A stretch of 64,000 bases of DNA from Paraflavitalea sp. CAU 1676. GTDB lineage: Bacteria; Bacteroidota; Bacteroidia; Chitinophagales; Chitinophagaceae. Under the pieces are notes generated by a model, which worked only from the letters and a program-made list of their open reading frames with translations, was not told the origin of the DNA and ran no database searches. Positions 43,560 to 49,844 of this stretch are shown here, piece by piece (positions within the stretch are counted from its first letter, which is position 1; every line of letters starts with the position of its first letter). Location of the stretch: assembly GCF_029223285.1 (NCBI RefSeq), contig NZ_JARHUJ010000002.1, positions 434,001-498,000 on the forward strand. Direction: 5' to 3'. The position numbers were made by a program, and so were the translations under genes.

Positions 43560-45188
43560 TCAGTTGTTATTACTATCGGCGTTTACTTTCTTTTCGAGGA
43601 TCGAGATATAGTTCTGTGCATCCTTATTGGCGGGATCGATCTCCAGGATCTTTTGCAGGTGCCCGATAGCATCAGCATAATCTTTTTCCTGGTTGGTTTC
43701 ATAGGCCGCGATATATCCATACGCTTCTACCAGCCACTTTTTCGTGGTAGCGGTAGCATTCGCACTGTCTTTCTCCAATTTCTCTATGAGGTTGTTGTAG
43801 TGTTGAATGGCCAGCCCTTTTTCCATGGCCGAATCCTTCAGCGAATTGGCCCTGGCCCGCCAGTAGTAACCAAAGCTTTGCTCCGGATACTTGCCGATAT
43901 ATTGACCAAACACCGTATCGGCCATATCATATTGCTCAGCTTTAAAATGGGCAATCCCCCAATTGAAAAGATCGATATTGGTAGCCTTCGCATTGTTGGT
44001 GTAATACCTGCCCAGCCAGATAGCCTGGTTGGCATTGTCCTTTTTCTCCTTATACAGATCGCTTAACTTTTTGTAATAAGTAAACAAAGCAGCAGAATCG
44101 GTGATCTTCGTTACCGCCGTTTGGTAAAATACCAGGGCCGAATCTTCTTTGCCCGGCGTAGCATTGTACAGGTCGGCCATAAGCTCATAATCCTTTACCA
44201 CGAAATGGCTATCATCCTCCTGCGCAAAATAAGCGATCATCGAAGTCAGCGCGCTCGCCGTATCCTTGAGGCCGGAATAACTATAAGCCATCAGCTTGTG
44301 CAGGCGGGGCATCGAATCTGCCGGTAAACCCGCCAGCGTGGACTTCGCCATAGCGATGGCCGAGTCGTATCGCTTGTTCAGGTACAACAGGTCAATAAGC
44401 TGATAATGATTTTCCGTACTGTAGTCACTTACGGCGAGGTATTGACGAAAGTAATCCAATGCCTTGGCCGCATCCTTGAAATAAGTGTCGTAATACAACT
44501 CATACCAGGCCGGAGCATACAAAGGATCCGCGGCGATCGTTTTATTGAAATACCCGAGATAGCTTTCTGCATTTTGCTGGGCCAGGAAGATCTTGCCCAT
44601 CTGGAACAACGCTTCGGCATTTTTGCCATCCTCATTCAACGCTGCCTGGTAAGCTCGATACGCTTCAGTACCATTGGCCAGCTTGCGATAAGCATTACCG
44701 CGCACCACATTCATAGCAGGCGCGTCGATATCTTTCTTGCCCGCCTGAGTCAAAACCTGCAACGCCCTATGGGGATCGGCATTCTTTTCACTCACATAGG
44801 CATTCGCAACAGCCAGCAGGATAGCGGCATCCTTTTTCCGCCCATCGCCAATGGCCTGGTCAAAGTACAGTTTGGCACTGTCGGGTTTTTGACTGGCCAG
44901 CAATAATTGTCCGTACGCTACTTTATAATAAGGCTGTTCCTTCACCGCAGCAGGCGCGCATTGTAAAGTGTCCAACAAAGCACGTGTTTGCTTCAAGGGC
45001 AGGTAGGCCTGCGACAACCGGTACCAGGCCTCGGCATTGTTGGCGTCTGCTTGCAGGATCGTGTGCAGCGCCGCCTGCGCACTGTGATACCGTTCGTGGT
45101 AAAGGAGTTGCGTGGCGTCGGGCAGGGTTTGAGCTGCCAGCGCAGCCGATATACAGAGCCCGCTCATCAGTAAGTACGTCTTTTTCAT
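43560..45188 (-). CDS. Exported TPR-repeat protein
   Basis: 542 residues with a signal peptide (about 1-18) and a nearly continuous array of TPR helix pairs (for example NAEAWYRLSQAYLPL, NAEALFQMGKIFLAQQ, YAPAWYELYYDTYFKD), ending with a TPR typical of N-D-A-Q-N-Y-I-S. Probably periplasmic and part of a protein complex. It is divergent from the OmpR-type two-component operon. Four CTAAT boxes at 11-bp spacing lie 36 bp upstream of its start, so it is a likely target of that system. Confidence 0.85.
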   Translation of the reverse strand: MKKTYLLMSGLCISAALAAQTLPDATQLLYHERYHSAQAALHTILQADANNAEAWYRLSQAYLPLKQTRALLDTLQCAPAAVKEQPYYKVAYGQLLLASQKPDSAKLYFDQAIGDGRKKDAAILLAVANAYVSEKNADPHRALQVLTQAGKKDIDAPAMNVVRGNAYRKLANGTEAYRAYQAALNEDGKNAEALFQMGKIFLAQQNAESYLGYFNKTIAADPLYAPAWYELYYDTYFKDAAKALDYFRQYLAVSDYSTENHYQLIDLLYLNKRYDSAIAMAKSTLAGLPADSMPRLHKLMAYSYSGLKDTASALTSMIAYFAQEDDSHFVVKDYELMADLYNATPGKEDSALVFYQTAVTKITDSAALFTYYKKLSDLYKEKKDNANQAIWLGRYYTNNAKATNIDLFNWGIAHFKAEQYDMADTVFGQYIGKYPEQSFGYYWRARANSLKDSAMEKGLAIQHYNNLIEKLEKDSANATATTKKWLVEAYGYIAAYETNQEKDYADAIGHLQKILEIDPANKDAQNYISILEKKVNADSNNN

Positions 45189-45224
45189 TGTCTGTTAGAG
45201 TTGCCCACAACTTAAAATGTCCTC

Positions 45225-45262
45225 ATTAGGCATTCATTAGGGCCGTATTAGAATAATATTAG
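45225..45262 (-). promoter_or_regulatory. Operator array: four CTAAT boxes at exact 11-bp period (TPR gene promoter)
   Basis: ATTAG occurs on the plus strand at 45225, 45236, 45247 and 45258, each exactly 11 bp from the next; read toward the TPR gene this is CTAAT x4. The two distal boxes extend to TTCTAAT. The last box ends 36 bp before the TPR start. A TTG sits at 15-17 bp after the last box, as in the second array at 47462. One site per helical turn is what an OmpR-family dimer array would need. Confidence 0.8.
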
Positions 45263-45390
45263 AAATGCGCGCCCTGTATGCCGCCAGCGCTGCGCCAAGG
45301 CCCGTCAGCGCGGCCGGCCCGGCCTCCGCCACACCGCAGTTCCGGCATTTGCTCGTACCTTCGGGCCCGTAAACATATCAGTAGCAGCCT

Positions 45391-46080
45391 ATGGAGGAAA
45401 GGAAGATACTTATTGTAGAAGACGAACATAAGATTGCCGATACGTTGAAGACCGGCCTCGCAGAGAATGGATATCATGTAGAAGTAGCGTACGACGGGAA
45501 GATAGGGGAGCGCCTTTTCATGGCGCACGATTTCAACCTCGTGATACTCGATATCAACCTGCCCGGCATCAATGGCTACGAGCTCTGTAAGATCATCCGC
45601 AGCCGCAATGCCCACGTGCCCGTCATCATGCTCACCTCGCTGGGCAGGCTCAACGACAAAACGGAGGGCTACGATGCAGGCGCCGATGATTACCTCGTAA
45701 AACCCTTCGAGTTCAAAGAACTCCTGCTCAAGATCAGGGTGCTGCTGCGGCGTACCATGAACCAGCAGCTGCCCGTTGGCAATGTGCTCAGCGCCGCCGA
45801 CCTCACGATGGACCTCGACCGCAAGGAAGTCATGCGCGCCGGTAATGCCATCACCCTCACCATGAAAGAGTTCCAGTTGCTCGAATACTTGTTGCGCAAC
45901 AAGAACAGGGTGGTGTCGAGGGCCGATATAGCCGTAAACGTATGGGAGATCGATTTCGATACCAATACCAATGTGATCGACGTATACATCAATTACCTGC
46001 GCAATAAGATCGATCGCAAATACGAGCAAAAGCTGATCCAGACGCAGGTAGGAATGGGATATGTTCTAAAAGAAAGCTGA
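45391..46080 (+). CDS. OmpR/PhoB-family response regulator
   Basis: 229 residues. Receiver domain at about 1-120 (VEDEHKIADTL, phospho-acceptor Asp54 in VILDINLPG, LVKPFEF lysine), then an OmpR-type winged helix (about 130-229; LTMKEFQLLEYLLRNKNRVVSRADIAVNVWE and the final IQTQVGMGYVL). Its stop is 5 bp before the kinase gene. It probably binds the 11-bp-phased CTAAT arrays on both sides of the operon (45225-45262 and 47462-47499). Confidence 0.97.
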   Translation: MEERKILIVEDEHKIADTLKTGLAENGYHVEVAYDGKIGERLFMAHDFNLVILDINLPGINGYELCKIIRSRNAHVPVIMLTSLGRLNDKTEGYDAGADDYLVKPFEFKELLLKIRVLLRRTMNQQLPVGNVLSAADLTMDLDRKEVMRAGNAITLTMKEFQLLEYLLRNKNRVVSRADIAVNVWEIDFDTNTNVIDVYINYLRNKIDRKYEQKLIQTQVGMGYVLKES

Positions 46081-46085
46081 AGCCA

Positions 46086-47465
46086 ATGCCGGTTAGACTG
46101 AGGATCACCCTGCTGTTCGGATGCATCGTATTGTTCATACTGCTGCTGGTATGCGGCTCGGTATATTATTTCTCCCGTACAGAGCGCACCCGCGATACCC
46201 GCCTGCGCCTCGTGAACCGCGCCATCACCCGCGCCCGCCTGCTGGCACACCCCACGTATTTCGATGCAGAACAACTGCGCATCCTCGATTCCTCTACCAT
46301 GATGGCCCTGCAGGACAAATCACTCCAGGCCTACAACTACAAAGGCGAAAAAGTATACAGCTACAGCGAAGAGCCGGAAGATACCCTCGCGGTCGACAAT
46401 AAATTATTAGACGAAGCCCGCATAAAAGGAACGGTCTATTTCCGGATCGGTAAAAAAGAAGCCGTGGCTTATCACCACGTCGATAGTAATATGCGGGTAG
46501 TGGTAGTTGCGGCCGCCTACGATGAAATGGGTCTGAAGAAGCTGCACGAGCTCGAGAACATCCTGCTCATCAGCTTTATCACCGGCAGCATCGTGGCATT
46601 TGCCGCAGGGTATATATTCTCGGGCCGCCTCCTGCGCCCCATTAAGAAGATCGCAGACGATATACAGGTCATATCTGCCCAGGAGTTGAACCGCCGGATA
46701 GACGGAGGCGATGCCAACGACGAATGGCGCTACCTCTCCGAAACGATCAATCAATTGCTCAACCGCCTGCAGGAAAGCTTCGACATGCAACGTCGCTTTA
46801 TTGCCAACGCATCACACGAACTCTCAACGCCGCTTACCTCCATCTCCAGCCAGTTGGAGGTATCGCTCTCGCGCGACCGCGAGGCCGATAAATACCGTAC
46901 CGTGATGCAGAGTGTGTACCAGGATGTACGCCACCTCGGCAAGCTCACCCAAACCCTGCTCGAATTTGCCCAGGCCTCCGGCGATCCCGGTGGACTCACC
47001 ATACAACCCGTGCGCATCGACGAAATATTACTCGAAATGCCGGCCGATGTCAACAAGCTGAATCCCGAATACACCGTGTCGCTCGCCTTTGGCGACATGC
47101 CGCCCGAAGAAGAAGCGCTCATCGTGGTAGGTAATAACGAACTCCTCTCGCTCGCCGTGCGCAATATCGTCATCAACGCCTGCAAATATTCTCCCGATCA
47201 TAAAGCCAATGTGCACCTCGAAGTGGCCGATCGCCAGCTGGTGATCTCCATATCCGACAAAGGCGTCGGGATACCCGAGGCAGACCTTAAATACATCTTT
47301 CAACCCTTTTACCGGGTTAACCACACCGGACCCGAATTGGGTTTTGGCCTGGGCCTCTCGCTGGCCCACCGCATCGTCAAACTGCACAAAGGCACCATAG
47401 AAGTGCAATCCACCCCCGGAGAAGGCTCCCTGTTCACCCTCCGGCTACCGGCTGCGCAATTCTAA
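46086..47465 (+). CDS. HAMP-domain sensor histidine kinase
   Basis: 459 residues. Transmembrane helices at about 8-29 and 160-179 enclose a periplasmic sensor of about 130 residues. HAMP at about 180-235, HisKA with phospho-acceptor His244 (FIANASHELSTPL), then HATPase_c with NACKYSPDH, DKGVGIPEADL and GFGLGLSLAHRIV. Domain order matches CusS/BaeS-like kinases. It is translated 5 bp after the response regulator, so the two form a cognate pair. Its stop codon overlaps the first box of the second CTAAT array. Ligand unknown. Confidence 0.96.
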   Translation: MPVRLRITLLFGCIVLFILLLVCGSVYYFSRTERTRDTRLRLVNRAITRARLLAHPTYFDAEQLRILDSSTMMALQDKSLQAYNYKGEKVYSYSEEPEDTLAVDNKLLDEARIKGTVYFRIGKKEAVAYHHVDSNMRVVVVAAAYDEMGLKKLHELENILLISFITGSIVAFAAGYIFSGRLLRPIKKIADDIQVISAQELNRRIDGGDANDEWRYLSETINQLLNRLQESFDMQRRFIANASHELSTPLTSISSQLEVSLSRDREADKYRTVMQSVYQDVRHLGKLTQTLLEFAQASGDPGGLTIQPVRIDEILLEMPADVNKLNPEYTVSLAFGDMPPEEEALIVVGNNELLSLAVRNIVINACKYSPDHKANVHLEVADRQLVISISDKGVGIPEADLKYIFQPFYRVNHTGPELGFGLGLSLAHRIVKLHKGTIEVQSTPGEGSLFTLRLPAAQF

Positions 47466-47499
47466 TCAGATTCTAATGTCATACTAAGGGCCGGCTAAT
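47462..47499 (+). promoter_or_regulatory. Operator array: four CTAAT-type boxes at exact 11-bp period (small lipoprotein promoter)
   Basis: CTAAT, CTAAT, CTAAG and CTAAT start at 47462, 47473, 47484 and 47495, each 11 bp apart. The first two extend to TTCTAAT as in the other array. The last box ends 37 bp before ATG 47537, and a TTG (in AATTTG, 47514-47516) lies 15-17 bp after it, exactly as in the array upstream of the TPR gene. Confidence 0.8.
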
Positions 47500-47536
47500 C
47501 ACCCGGTTACAATTTGCTTCCGAAAGAAGGCCGGGT

Positions 47537-47761
47537 ATGAAAATCAATTATTCTTTGTTCCTGATATTCGTCATCATGGGGCTGCTGGCCCTTAGCGGAT
47601 GCCTTTTTAAACAAAGCACCACCTACCGGTTACACAACCGGGAACTGATACTGGAAAACGATTCGCTGATCTCCGTGACCATCGAGCTCAGGAAAGAATT
47701 GGAGAAGGTGCAGCACGGTGGAGCACCGCAACGCAAAAGATCAACAGCAAGTTCAAAATAA
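47537..47761 (+). CDS. Small lipoprotein
   Basis: 74 residues. Lipoprotein signal with lipobox LALSGC (Cys22), then a short helical, Leu/Glu-rich mature part (LELRKELEKV-like heptads) and a basic tail. It lies directly downstream of the second CTAAT array and ahead of uspA (30 bp), so it is likely the first gene of a unit controlled by the two-component system. Function unknown; it could feed envelope state back to the kinase. Confidence 0.75.
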   Translation: MKINYSLFLIFVIMGLLALSGCLFKQSTTYRLHNRELILENDSLISVTIELRKELEKVQHGGAPQRKRSTASSK

Positions 47762-47791: not shown

Positions 47792-48601
47792 ATGATAAAG
47801 AACATCGTGGTGCCCATCGATTATAGTGAAGCATCGCTCAACGCATTGGAAACTGCCGGCTACGTAGCAACACAGCAACGTAGCCGGGTGCAATTGCTGC
47901 ATGTGCAGGAAACGGATGAGGCCTACCTCGATCAGGCGGCCCTTACCATGCCCTCACATGCCCGCAGTGTGGCCGATGCCATCGCGGCAGGCTTTCATCA
48001 AAAGCAGGGCATTAACCCAAGCATTGTTTTCAGGACCGGATTTGCCGGGCCTACCATTGTCAAGGCTGCACACGACCTCAAGGCCGACCTCATCGTATTG
48101 GGCGCGCATGGCGCTTCTGGTATGCGTGAGCAATTCATTGGCACTACGGCTTATTATGTTGTGAAGTATGCCAATTGCCCCGTACTCATCATACCCGAGG
48201 GCAGCAAGTGGCCGGGGTTCAGTAAAGTGCTGTTTCCCCTGCGTACCAGCTTCGGATCCTATAAACGCTACGAGTTCATCAAAGCCCTGAGCGGTGACCG
48301 TGGCGCACACCTGGAAATATTCGCCCTCTCGCTCGACCGTGATCCTGTAGAAGGCCAGGCACTAGAGCTCATGCGTCAGCGGCTCAATGCCGGCAACCCC
48401 AAAAACGACATTACCCTTTCCCTTCACCACAGTGAGCATAAGAATATATCCAAGGAAGTGCTGGACCGGGCCGATCGTACGCTCGCCAACCTCATCGTAT
48501 TATCGCCGGCAGTAGATGTAGTGAATAAACAATTCTTTGTAGGCCCCTTCTGTCAGCGCATTATTCACCATGCCCGGGTGCCGGTGCTATATGTGCGTTA
48601 A
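47792..48601 (+). CDS. Tandem universal stress protein (UspA)
   Basis: 269 residues with two Usp domains. The first is complete (KNIVVPIDYSEASLNALETA at the start; DLIVLGAHGASGMREQFIGTTAYYVVKYANCPVLII with the G-x2-G-x9-G(S/T) nucleotide-binding pattern). The second (from KVLFPLRTSF) is more divergent and ends in IVLSPA and RVPVLYVR. Such proteins bind ATP or sense stress. It follows the small lipoprotein by 30 bp and precedes nhaA. Confidence 0.93.
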   Translation: MIKNIVVPIDYSEASLNALETAGYVATQQRSRVQLLHVQETDEAYLDQAALTMPSHARSVADAIAAGFHQKQGINPSIVFRTGFAGPTIVKAAHDLKADLIVLGAHGASGMREQFIGTTAYYVVKYANCPVLIIPEGSKWPGFSKVLFPLRTSFGSYKRYEFIKALSGDRGAHLEIFALSLDRDPVEGQALELMRQRLNAGNPKNDITLSLHHSEHKNISKEVLDRADRTLANLIVLSPAVDVVNKQFFVGPFCQRIIHHARVPVLYVR

Positions 48602-48677: not shown

Positions 48678-49844
48678 ATGCGATTGACCAGATTGTTCAA
48701 TGAGTTTTTTCACAGCGAAAAGGCCGGTGGTCTTTTATTGGTTGGCTGCACACTCATCTCGTTGTTGATAGCCAACACCGCTATTGGCGATAGTTACATC
48801 CATTTCTGGCATACCAACCTGGGGCCAAAGCCTGTCGAGTTTTGGGTGAACGATGTGTTGATGAGCATCTTCTTTCTGCTCGTTGGCCTGGAGATCGAGA
48901 GAGAACTCTACATCGGTGAAATGTCCGACCTCCGCCGGGCCATGTTGCCGGTGTTTGCTGCCATTGGAGGTATGGCCGTGCCAGCGCTCATTCATTATCT
49001 GTTTAACCACGGTACAGCGTCTCAGGGTGGGGTAGCCATCCCCATGGCCACCGATATCGCCTTCTCACTGGGTATCTTGTCGCTGCTGGGTAATCGCGTG
49101 CCCGCGGCACTCAAAGTATTTCTCACCGCCCTGGCCATTATCGACGACCTGGGTTCCATACTCGTAATTGCCCTGTTTTATGCACACGGCATATCTACAA
49201 CCAACCTGCTCATCGCCGGAGGGATCTATGCCGTAATGCTGGTGCTCAATAAATTCAAAGTATACCGTACCTGGATATATCTGCTGCTGGGAGTAGTGAT
49301 GTGGGTCTTTATGTACCGTTCTGGTGTACACGCTACCATCACCGGCGTATTGGTAGCCGCCGCCATACCGTTTGGCAATGGCGATGAGCATTCACCATCC
49401 TATCAACTGCAGCATCGTTTGCACAAGCCGGTCGCTTTTGTGATATTGCCCATTTTTGCCCTCGCCAATACCGCCATCGCCATTCCCGCTACCTGGATGG
49501 ATGACCTCGGCTCGCCCAACAGCCTCGGTATCATGCTGGGCCTGCTCGCCGGCAAGCCGGCAGGTATCTTCCTGTTCAGTATGATCCCTTTTTGGCTGGG
49601 CCTGGCCAGTTTACCGGCGGGTATTAAACGGGTGCACCTCCTGTGGACGGGCTTGCTGGCTGGCATCGGCTTTACCATGTCCATCTTCATCACCCACCTG
49701 GCCTTTGCCGATGAAACCCTGGTGGTAAGCTCTAAGATCGCCATTATGCTGGGTTCGGTGACAGCTGGCCTGCTGGGTTTGCTGCTGCTGAAAGCGTCAC
49801 TTAAACAGGCAGCCGACCCGCTTTCGGAGGCCGAAACCACCTGA
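48678..49844 (+). CDS. nhaA: Na+/H+ antiporter NhaA
   Basis: 388 residues, the usual NhaA length, with about 12 membrane segments. Family signs are EKAGGLLLVGCTLISLLIANT at the start, GLEIERELYIGEMSDLRRAMLPVFAAIGGM, ATDIAFSLGILSLLGNRVP, and the ion-binding pair in AIIDDLGSILVIALFY (matching Asp163-Asp164 of E. coli NhaA). It swaps Na+ for H+ and sets internal pH and sodium. Its place after uspA and near a two-component system suggests a stress-response set. Confidence 0.97.
   Translation: MRLTRLFNEFFHSEKAGGLLLVGCTLISLLIANTAIGDSYIHFWHTNLGPKPVEFWVNDVLMSIFFLLVGLEIERELYIGEMSDLRRAMLPVFAAIGGMAVPALIHYLFNHGTASQGGVAIPMATDIAFSLGILSLLGNRVPAALKVFLTALAIIDDLGSILVIALFYAHGISTTNLLIAGGIYAVMLVLNKFKVYRTWIYLLLGVVMWVFMYRSGVHATITGVLVAAAIPFGNGDEHSPSYQLQHRLHKPVAFVILPIFALANTAIAIPATWMDDLGSPNSLGIMLGLLAGKPAGIFLFSMIPFWLGLASLPAGIKRVHLLWTGLLAGIGFTMSIFITHLAFADETLVVSSKIAIMLGSVTAGLLGLLLLKASLKQAADPLSEAETT

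Follow-up and report, generated by a model that had tools for sequence, protein, structure and literature searches.

The locus lies in a window of 64,000 nucleotides (the whole stretch of Paraflavitalea DNA that was analysed) and consists of a response regulator and its neighbouring sensor kinase, flanked by two arrays of short repeats:

43560..45188, minus strand: TPR-repeat protein whose start resembles a signal peptide; predicted target of array 1
45207..45214, minus strand: -7 promoter element of the TPR gene, TAAGTTGT in the window, from the alignment of orthologues
45225..45264, minus strand: array 1, boxes TTCTAAT, TTCTAAT, CCCTAAT and GCCTAAT at an 11-bp step, directed at the TPR gene
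45391..46080, plus strand: OmpR/PhoB-family response regulator (Response_reg and Trans_reg_C); predicted binder of the arrays
46086..47465, plus strand: membrane sensor histidine kinase (HAMP, HisKA, HATPase_c)
47460..47499, plus strand: array 2, boxes TTCTAAT, TTCTAAT, TACTAAG and GGCTAAT at an 11-bp step
47508..47516, plus strand: imperfect -7-like element of the small membrane protein gene, TACAATTTG, at a position that fits the array logo
47537..47761, plus strand: small membrane-anchored protein of 74 aa in which an LxNDS motif is conserved; predicted target of array 2
47792..48601, plus strand: universal stress protein (Usp; PF00582)
48678..49844, plus strand: NhaA Na+/H+ antiporter (PF06965; NCBIfam NhaA above its cut-off)

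Both domains of the regulator score over their cut-offs (PF00072, 106.3 bits; PF00486, 87.8 bits), which places the protein in the OmpR/PhoB family, and among the best 25 of the 98 NCBIfam models matched it falls under the cut-off of every one. Its best match there, TIGR01387, reaches 243.4 bits against a cut-off of 279.2, and an assignment as a heavy-metal regulator was rejected on that score. The small membrane protein, found at 13 of the 14 orthologous loci described below, matches nothing in Pfam or NCBIfam at E <= 0.001. It had been called a lipoprotein in the original prediction, and a lipobox-like cysteine is indeed present in the window's copy and in some orthologues; because it is absent in others, we regard the protein as a membrane anchor rather than a strict lipoprotein. 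It could act in feedback on the kinase. The Usp gene, present at 11 of the 14 loci, probably shares a transcript with the small protein gene, and the NhaA gene possibly lies on the same transcript; NhaA is a neighbour at only one of the 14 loci and is thus a weak member of the gene set. The TPR gene has an orthologue at 13 of them.

On re-reading the sequence, both four-box CTAAT arrays were found where they had been predicted. In array 1, CTAAT occurs four times with starts exactly 11 bp apart, from 45262 down to 45225 on the minus strand; in array 2, CTAAT, CTAAT, CTAAG and CTAAT follow one another at the same step across 47462-47499 on the plus strand. TTCTAAT makes up the two distal boxes of both, as had been claimed, and the last box ends 36 bp (array 1) or 37 bp (array 2) ahead of the ATG. 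Tandem half-sites of one orientation at a step of about 11 bp define an operator of the OmpR/PhoB type, and this is the arrangement of both arrays, which look like working operators. Array 1 faces the TPR gene and points away from the regulator and kinase genes, so there is no clear sign that it serves as their promoter. Another short stretch of conserved sequence, at about 45344-45359, lies between the TPR and regulator genes outside the boxes and may be the promoter of the regulator gene itself. In array 2, box 1 overlaps the stop codon of the kinase (TTC TAA T, window 47460-47466). A C-terminal phenylalanine is common to most of the kinase orthologues, which may be due to this overlap.

The twin arrays had been thought hard to explain by chance, and controls bear this out. 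A three-box pattern allowing up to two mismatches has four matches in the window, all inside the two arrays; across 100 dinucleotide-preserving shuffles of the window the mean was 0.09 matches, and none of the 100 reached four. In the whole 8.84-Mb genome the exact pattern finds array 1 only (two overlapping matches), and at up to one mismatch there are six matches, four of them in arrays 1 and 2, compared with four for the pattern read backwards.

Orthologous loci were gathered by kinase similarity, which gave 16 loci in named genomes. Fourteen of these, with kinases 54-81% identical, were kept as orthologues and come from Paraflavitalea, Niastella, Longitalea and Flavisolibacter; L068 and L069, whose kinases are 26-30% identical, were excluded as non-orthologues, and neither of these two distant loci has an array. 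Loss of the arrays in relatives that keep the two-component genes, which the original prediction had set as its refutation, was not seen, both arrays being kept at 14 of 14 loci. Array 1 keeps at least 17 of its 20 box letters at all 14; boxes 1 and 2 of array 2 are recognisable at every one, and the TAA core persists in box 3 at 13 and in box 4 at 11. Twin arrays are present in all five genomes of the genus. The DNA around the arrays diverges while the arrays persist: in a footprint alignment of the intergenic region between the TPR and regulator genes (14 rows, the window plus 13 loci; "other" columns are those with few gaps), the invariant columns are 19 of 28 in the boxes, 4 of 9 in the -7 element and 2 of 132 elsewhere. 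Columns kept in at least 12 of the 14 rows number 22, 8 and 12, respectively, and most of the 12 well-kept outside columns cluster close to the regulator gene.

The alignment also clarifies the promoter. Upstream of the TPR gene, the -7 element reads TAAGTTTG in 10 of 13 aligned orthologues. TAnnTTTG is given as the -7 element of flavobacterial housekeeping promoters, with a variant TAnnTTGY, in the excerpted text of PMC9723704. The TTG noted at bases 15-17 past the last box is present in both arrays as predicted; as an element of its own it falls away, because the sequence shared by those 10 orthologues matches the Bacteroidota -7 box, of which TTG forms the end. On the same logo and alignment, a reading of the TTG at offset 17 as a -33 element was rejected. 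The proximal box ends about 10 bp ahead of the TAnnTTTG-like element, and for this reason the boxes cover the usual place of the -33 element; on the spacing that we take to be standard, the usual -33 position would fall between boxes 3 and 4. Among 94 arrays from other genera of the family, gathered with a pattern in which only boxes 1-3 are fixed, 62 continue with a fourth TAA core one 11-bp step further on; TAnnTT occupies the -7 place in 39, and the exact TAnnTTTG is found there in 15, compared with 5 at a control offset. This layout is that of an activator that stands in for the upstream promoter element.

Across 244 genomes of the family, the array pattern at up to one mismatch gave 193 matches in 90 genomes (overlapping matches counted separately), and the backwards pattern gave 22 in 21. 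Genomes were then binned by the exponent of the best E-value to the window's regulator. Arrays occur in 43 of 48 genomes at e-100 and beyond, 14 of 21 at exponents 90-99, 3 of 13 at 80-89 and 25 of 74 at 60-79, and in 5 of 88 where the regulator has no match at 1e-60; five of the 48 genomes with a close regulator have no array match at up to one mismatch. Because the fall is not smooth and arrays also occur in those 25 genomes with a distant regulator, the motif belongs to a clade of regulators of which the window's is one member. A phylum-wide search found matches in 71 of 395 genomes, about 129 in all against about 51 backwards, and since this excess is only about 2.5-fold, most of the motif signal lies in the window's class. 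One backwards-control match, L307, itself holds two TTCTAAT boxes 11 bp apart, so the backwards control slightly overstates chance.

The operator geometry is already known from PmrA, CovR and PhoB, and the mechanism proposed here is an ordinary one, unusually regular and well conserved. PmrA/BasR, also of the OmpR/PhoB family, binds head-to-tail half-sites of 6 bp that recur every 11 bp and have a TTAAT/CTAAG-like core, the PmrA box being CTTAAT-N5-CCTAAG (PMC3973317, in excerpt). It differs in having one pair of half-sites where there are four boxes here, and in its phylum and targets; the window's regulator lies far under the NCBIfam PmrA cut-off (159.1 vs 330 bits). PhoB, in the same excerpted source (PMC3973317), likewise binds direct repeats head-to-tail; its boxes differ in sequence. 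The window's regulator falls under the cut-offs of the PhoB models of NCBIfam as well. PhoB sites share the 11-bp step, and their boxes replace the -35 element.

CovR of streptococci offers a further likeness. Its reported box is ATTARA, which on the opposite strand reads TYTAAT, and tandem ATTARA-like motifs 5 bp apart, at the same step as here, are reported as well (PMC8893699, in excerpt). CovR is also the second-best match to the window's regulator among solved DNA-binding domains, and the two recognition helices are nearly the same, TNVVDVYIRYLRGKID in CovR and TNVIDVYINYLRNKID in the window's regulator; in another span quoted for this helix, TNVVDVYIRYLR (CovR) is close to TNVIDVYINYLR. 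A CovR-like helix together with a CovR-like box lends separate support to the flanked regulator as the binder. CovR differs in its phylum, in its degenerate sites and in repressing many of its genes, and the excerpted account of it holds no four regular boxes before a -7 element (PMC8893699). The CusR/CopR/PcoR group (TIGR01387) supplies the best NCBIfam match and, in PcoR 2jzy, the best DNA-binding-domain match, and elsewhere in the phylum efflux genes of the TolC or CusB type lie behind some of the arrays. CusR itself binds inverted repeats, and there is no metal-efflux gene among the six genes scanned beside the regulator (TPR, regulator, kinase, small protein, Usp and NhaA). Against the RprY model from Bacteroides the regulator is again under the cut-off, at 135.3 vs 370 bits.

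This genome encodes three regulators of the same family, including paralogues 48% and 68% identical to the window's. Twelve loci, picked by regulator similarity, represent the orthologue group of the 68% paralogue (G000 C1:188742-189422; L071 and L390, with group mates L379-L389). Their layout of regulator, kinase and small membrane protein is that of the window, with a small-protein frame in 11 of 12, and the small membrane proteins of the two systems are homologous (best E 2.5e-14 in the set of 11). Two boxes lie upstream of the regulator in this group and more after the kinase, at the same step, and they carry T as the third base (TTTTAAT/GTTTAAT). After the kinase of the 48% paralogue (G000 C17:507565) come two TTCTAAT boxes spaced two turns apart, and the paralogue's own gene is preceded by TTCTTAT/TTCTAAT. 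In clade members at 50-54% identity, TTCTAAT arrays lie behind the kinase.

The box letter varies with the residue at helix position 202: among 49 labelled loci, phenylalanine goes with T in 17 of 17 and tyrosine with C in 31 of 32 (F/T 17, Y/C 31, Y/T 1). The labels derive from 72 loci, 37 with a usable array (3 mixed) and 35 without, plus 15 clade-A loci; the array threshold was an uncorrected p <= 0.02 from mononucleotide shuffles, with up to four stretches per locus. Eight of the Y/C loci (L391-L398) had been chosen for having TTCTAAT arrays, and leaving them out gives F/T 17, Y/C 23 and Y/T 1; 11 of the 17 F/T loci belong to one orthologue group. On the tree there are two changes (one independent pair on well-supported branches, two on all; sign test p = 1), and because there are only two, the covariation of Tyr/Phe with C/T is a lead and not proof. 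A wider scheme is possible, and we offer it tentatively: Chitinophagaceae may carry duplicated modules of regulator, kinase and small LxNDS protein (the last maybe feeding back), each with its own arrays and insulated from the other by the TTCTAAT/TTTTAAT letter through Tyr/Phe 202, the TTCTAAT member running an ion, osmotic and Usp response.

Our preferred reading, to which we assign a probability of about 0.8, is that the arrays are operators of the OmpR/PhoB-family regulator encoded between them, which would activate by head-to-tail binding. The flanked regulator is favoured as the binder because both arrays are kept at all 14 orthologous loci, because array presence tracks the regulator across genomes, and because a paralogous system has a changed box. 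In sequence, the putative operator consists of four half-sites of 7 bp (consensus TTCTAAT, with the distal pair the strongest) in one orientation every 11 bp. Phosphorylated regulator would bind head-to-tail with one DNA-binding domain per box, probably in the form of two neighbouring dimers along a single DNA face, and would recruit the housekeeping RNA polymerase where a good -33 element is missing, as PhoB does. We infer from sequence the binding itself, its dependence on phosphorylation, activation rather than repression, and the choice of main binder among the three same-family regulators.

That choice has a competitor, which we consider rather unlikely. A different member of the clade, for instance the 48% paralogue, may be the main binder, or several members may share the arrays; the paralogue has TTCTAAT boxes beside its own genes and the same helix tyrosine, and TTCTAAT arrays also follow the kinases of the clade members at 50-54% identity. 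However, it is the window's regulator that the arrays flank at each of the 14 loci, and they are commonest where a close orthologue of it exists. Slightly less probable again is that this regulator binds the arrays and represses, or works both ways. The proximal boxes do sit where RNA polymerase would contact the -33 region, and CovR, whose helix and box are similar, is a repressor of many genes (PMC8893699, in excerpt), but the distance from the end of the arrays to the downstream -7 element is nearly constant and the element itself is left uncovered, as at activator sites. The arrays could in principle be chance A+T-rich repeats or functionless remnants, given that three-box matches at up to one mismatch do arise by chance (about four in this genome by the backwards control). 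Shuffles, backwards controls, the footprint and co-occurrence with the regulator all oppose this explanation, which has a negligible probability; a chance origin was rejected on the shuffles, the backwards controls and conservation.

Under activation by the flanked regulator, the divergent TPR gene and the small-membrane-protein and Usp genes, perhaps also NhaA, would be its targets in the window. Candidate targets elsewhere come from 100 array regions fetched from the matches listed in the genus and family scans, which are part of all matches. A downstream reading-frame rule gave a frame for 90 arrays (up to one mismatch) and none for 11, and 89 different frames, some of them probably not genes, were scanned. 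Among the matches listed, Usp accounts for 22 of the 89 frames, compared with 0 of 16 downstream of backwards-control matches; the same set includes outer-membrane efflux proteins (6), OmpA (4), hemerythrin (4), glycerol-3-phosphate dehydrogenase (3), TPR (3), glycosyltransferase family 20 of trehalose synthesis (2) and DUF4142 (2). Single examples are an Na+/H+ exchanger, a ClC chloride channel, a trehalose synthase/phosphatase and an S30AE ribosome-associated protein. Within the genus, the Na+/H+ exchanger promoter has two boxes and a -7 element in one register in all four orthologues found; outside it, boxes occur in 0 of 7 orthologues. A general Usp regulon within the genus was rejected, since of 25 scorable loci (30 fetched) only four have an array, all at the window's locus. 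A weak Usp-like gene in another species of the genus (L168) has an array at two mismatches. Ahead of a CxxCxxCC (zinc/iron-chelating) gene (L177, L165, L170), boxes occur in three of five species of the genus, where other upstream DNA is also conserved; in the window's own genome this gene is followed by an Na_H_Exchanger gene. The regulator would also act at Na+/H+ exchangers elsewhere in the genus and, in some species, at a chloride channel and trehalose synthesis; in other genera its targets would often be universal stress protein genes. Together these would make up what we would call an ion, osmotic and envelope stress regulon.

For a widespread clade of response regulators in Bacteroidota, our findings provide a readable operator whose promoter geometry is regular, and candidate regulons can now be read from genomes. 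We know of no RpoS in this bacterial group. Among the matches listed in the open-licence literature we found no description of this box or regulon, nor was the paralogue set found described there, or a regulator of this kind for ion, osmotic or universal-stress-protein genes in the phylum. The candidate targets, including ion exchangers, trehalose synthesis, Usp and a ribosome-hibernation-type protein, make some of this stress biology directly testable, and the one-letter box difference between paralogous systems is a natural test of how cross-talk is avoided after duplication.

At L173 (G002 C81:79542-90500), four array matches lie within 6 kb in one species, where they precede the genes of a TPR paralogue and a trehalose-phosphate synthase as well as two further genes. 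Phylum-wide, 5 of 25 scanned downstream genes are TolC-like and 3 of 25 CusB/HlyD-like. In other families of the class, arrays precede a P-type cation ATPase and an MgtC-family gene (L312, L325), hinting at a role in divalent-cation stress for some members of the clade.
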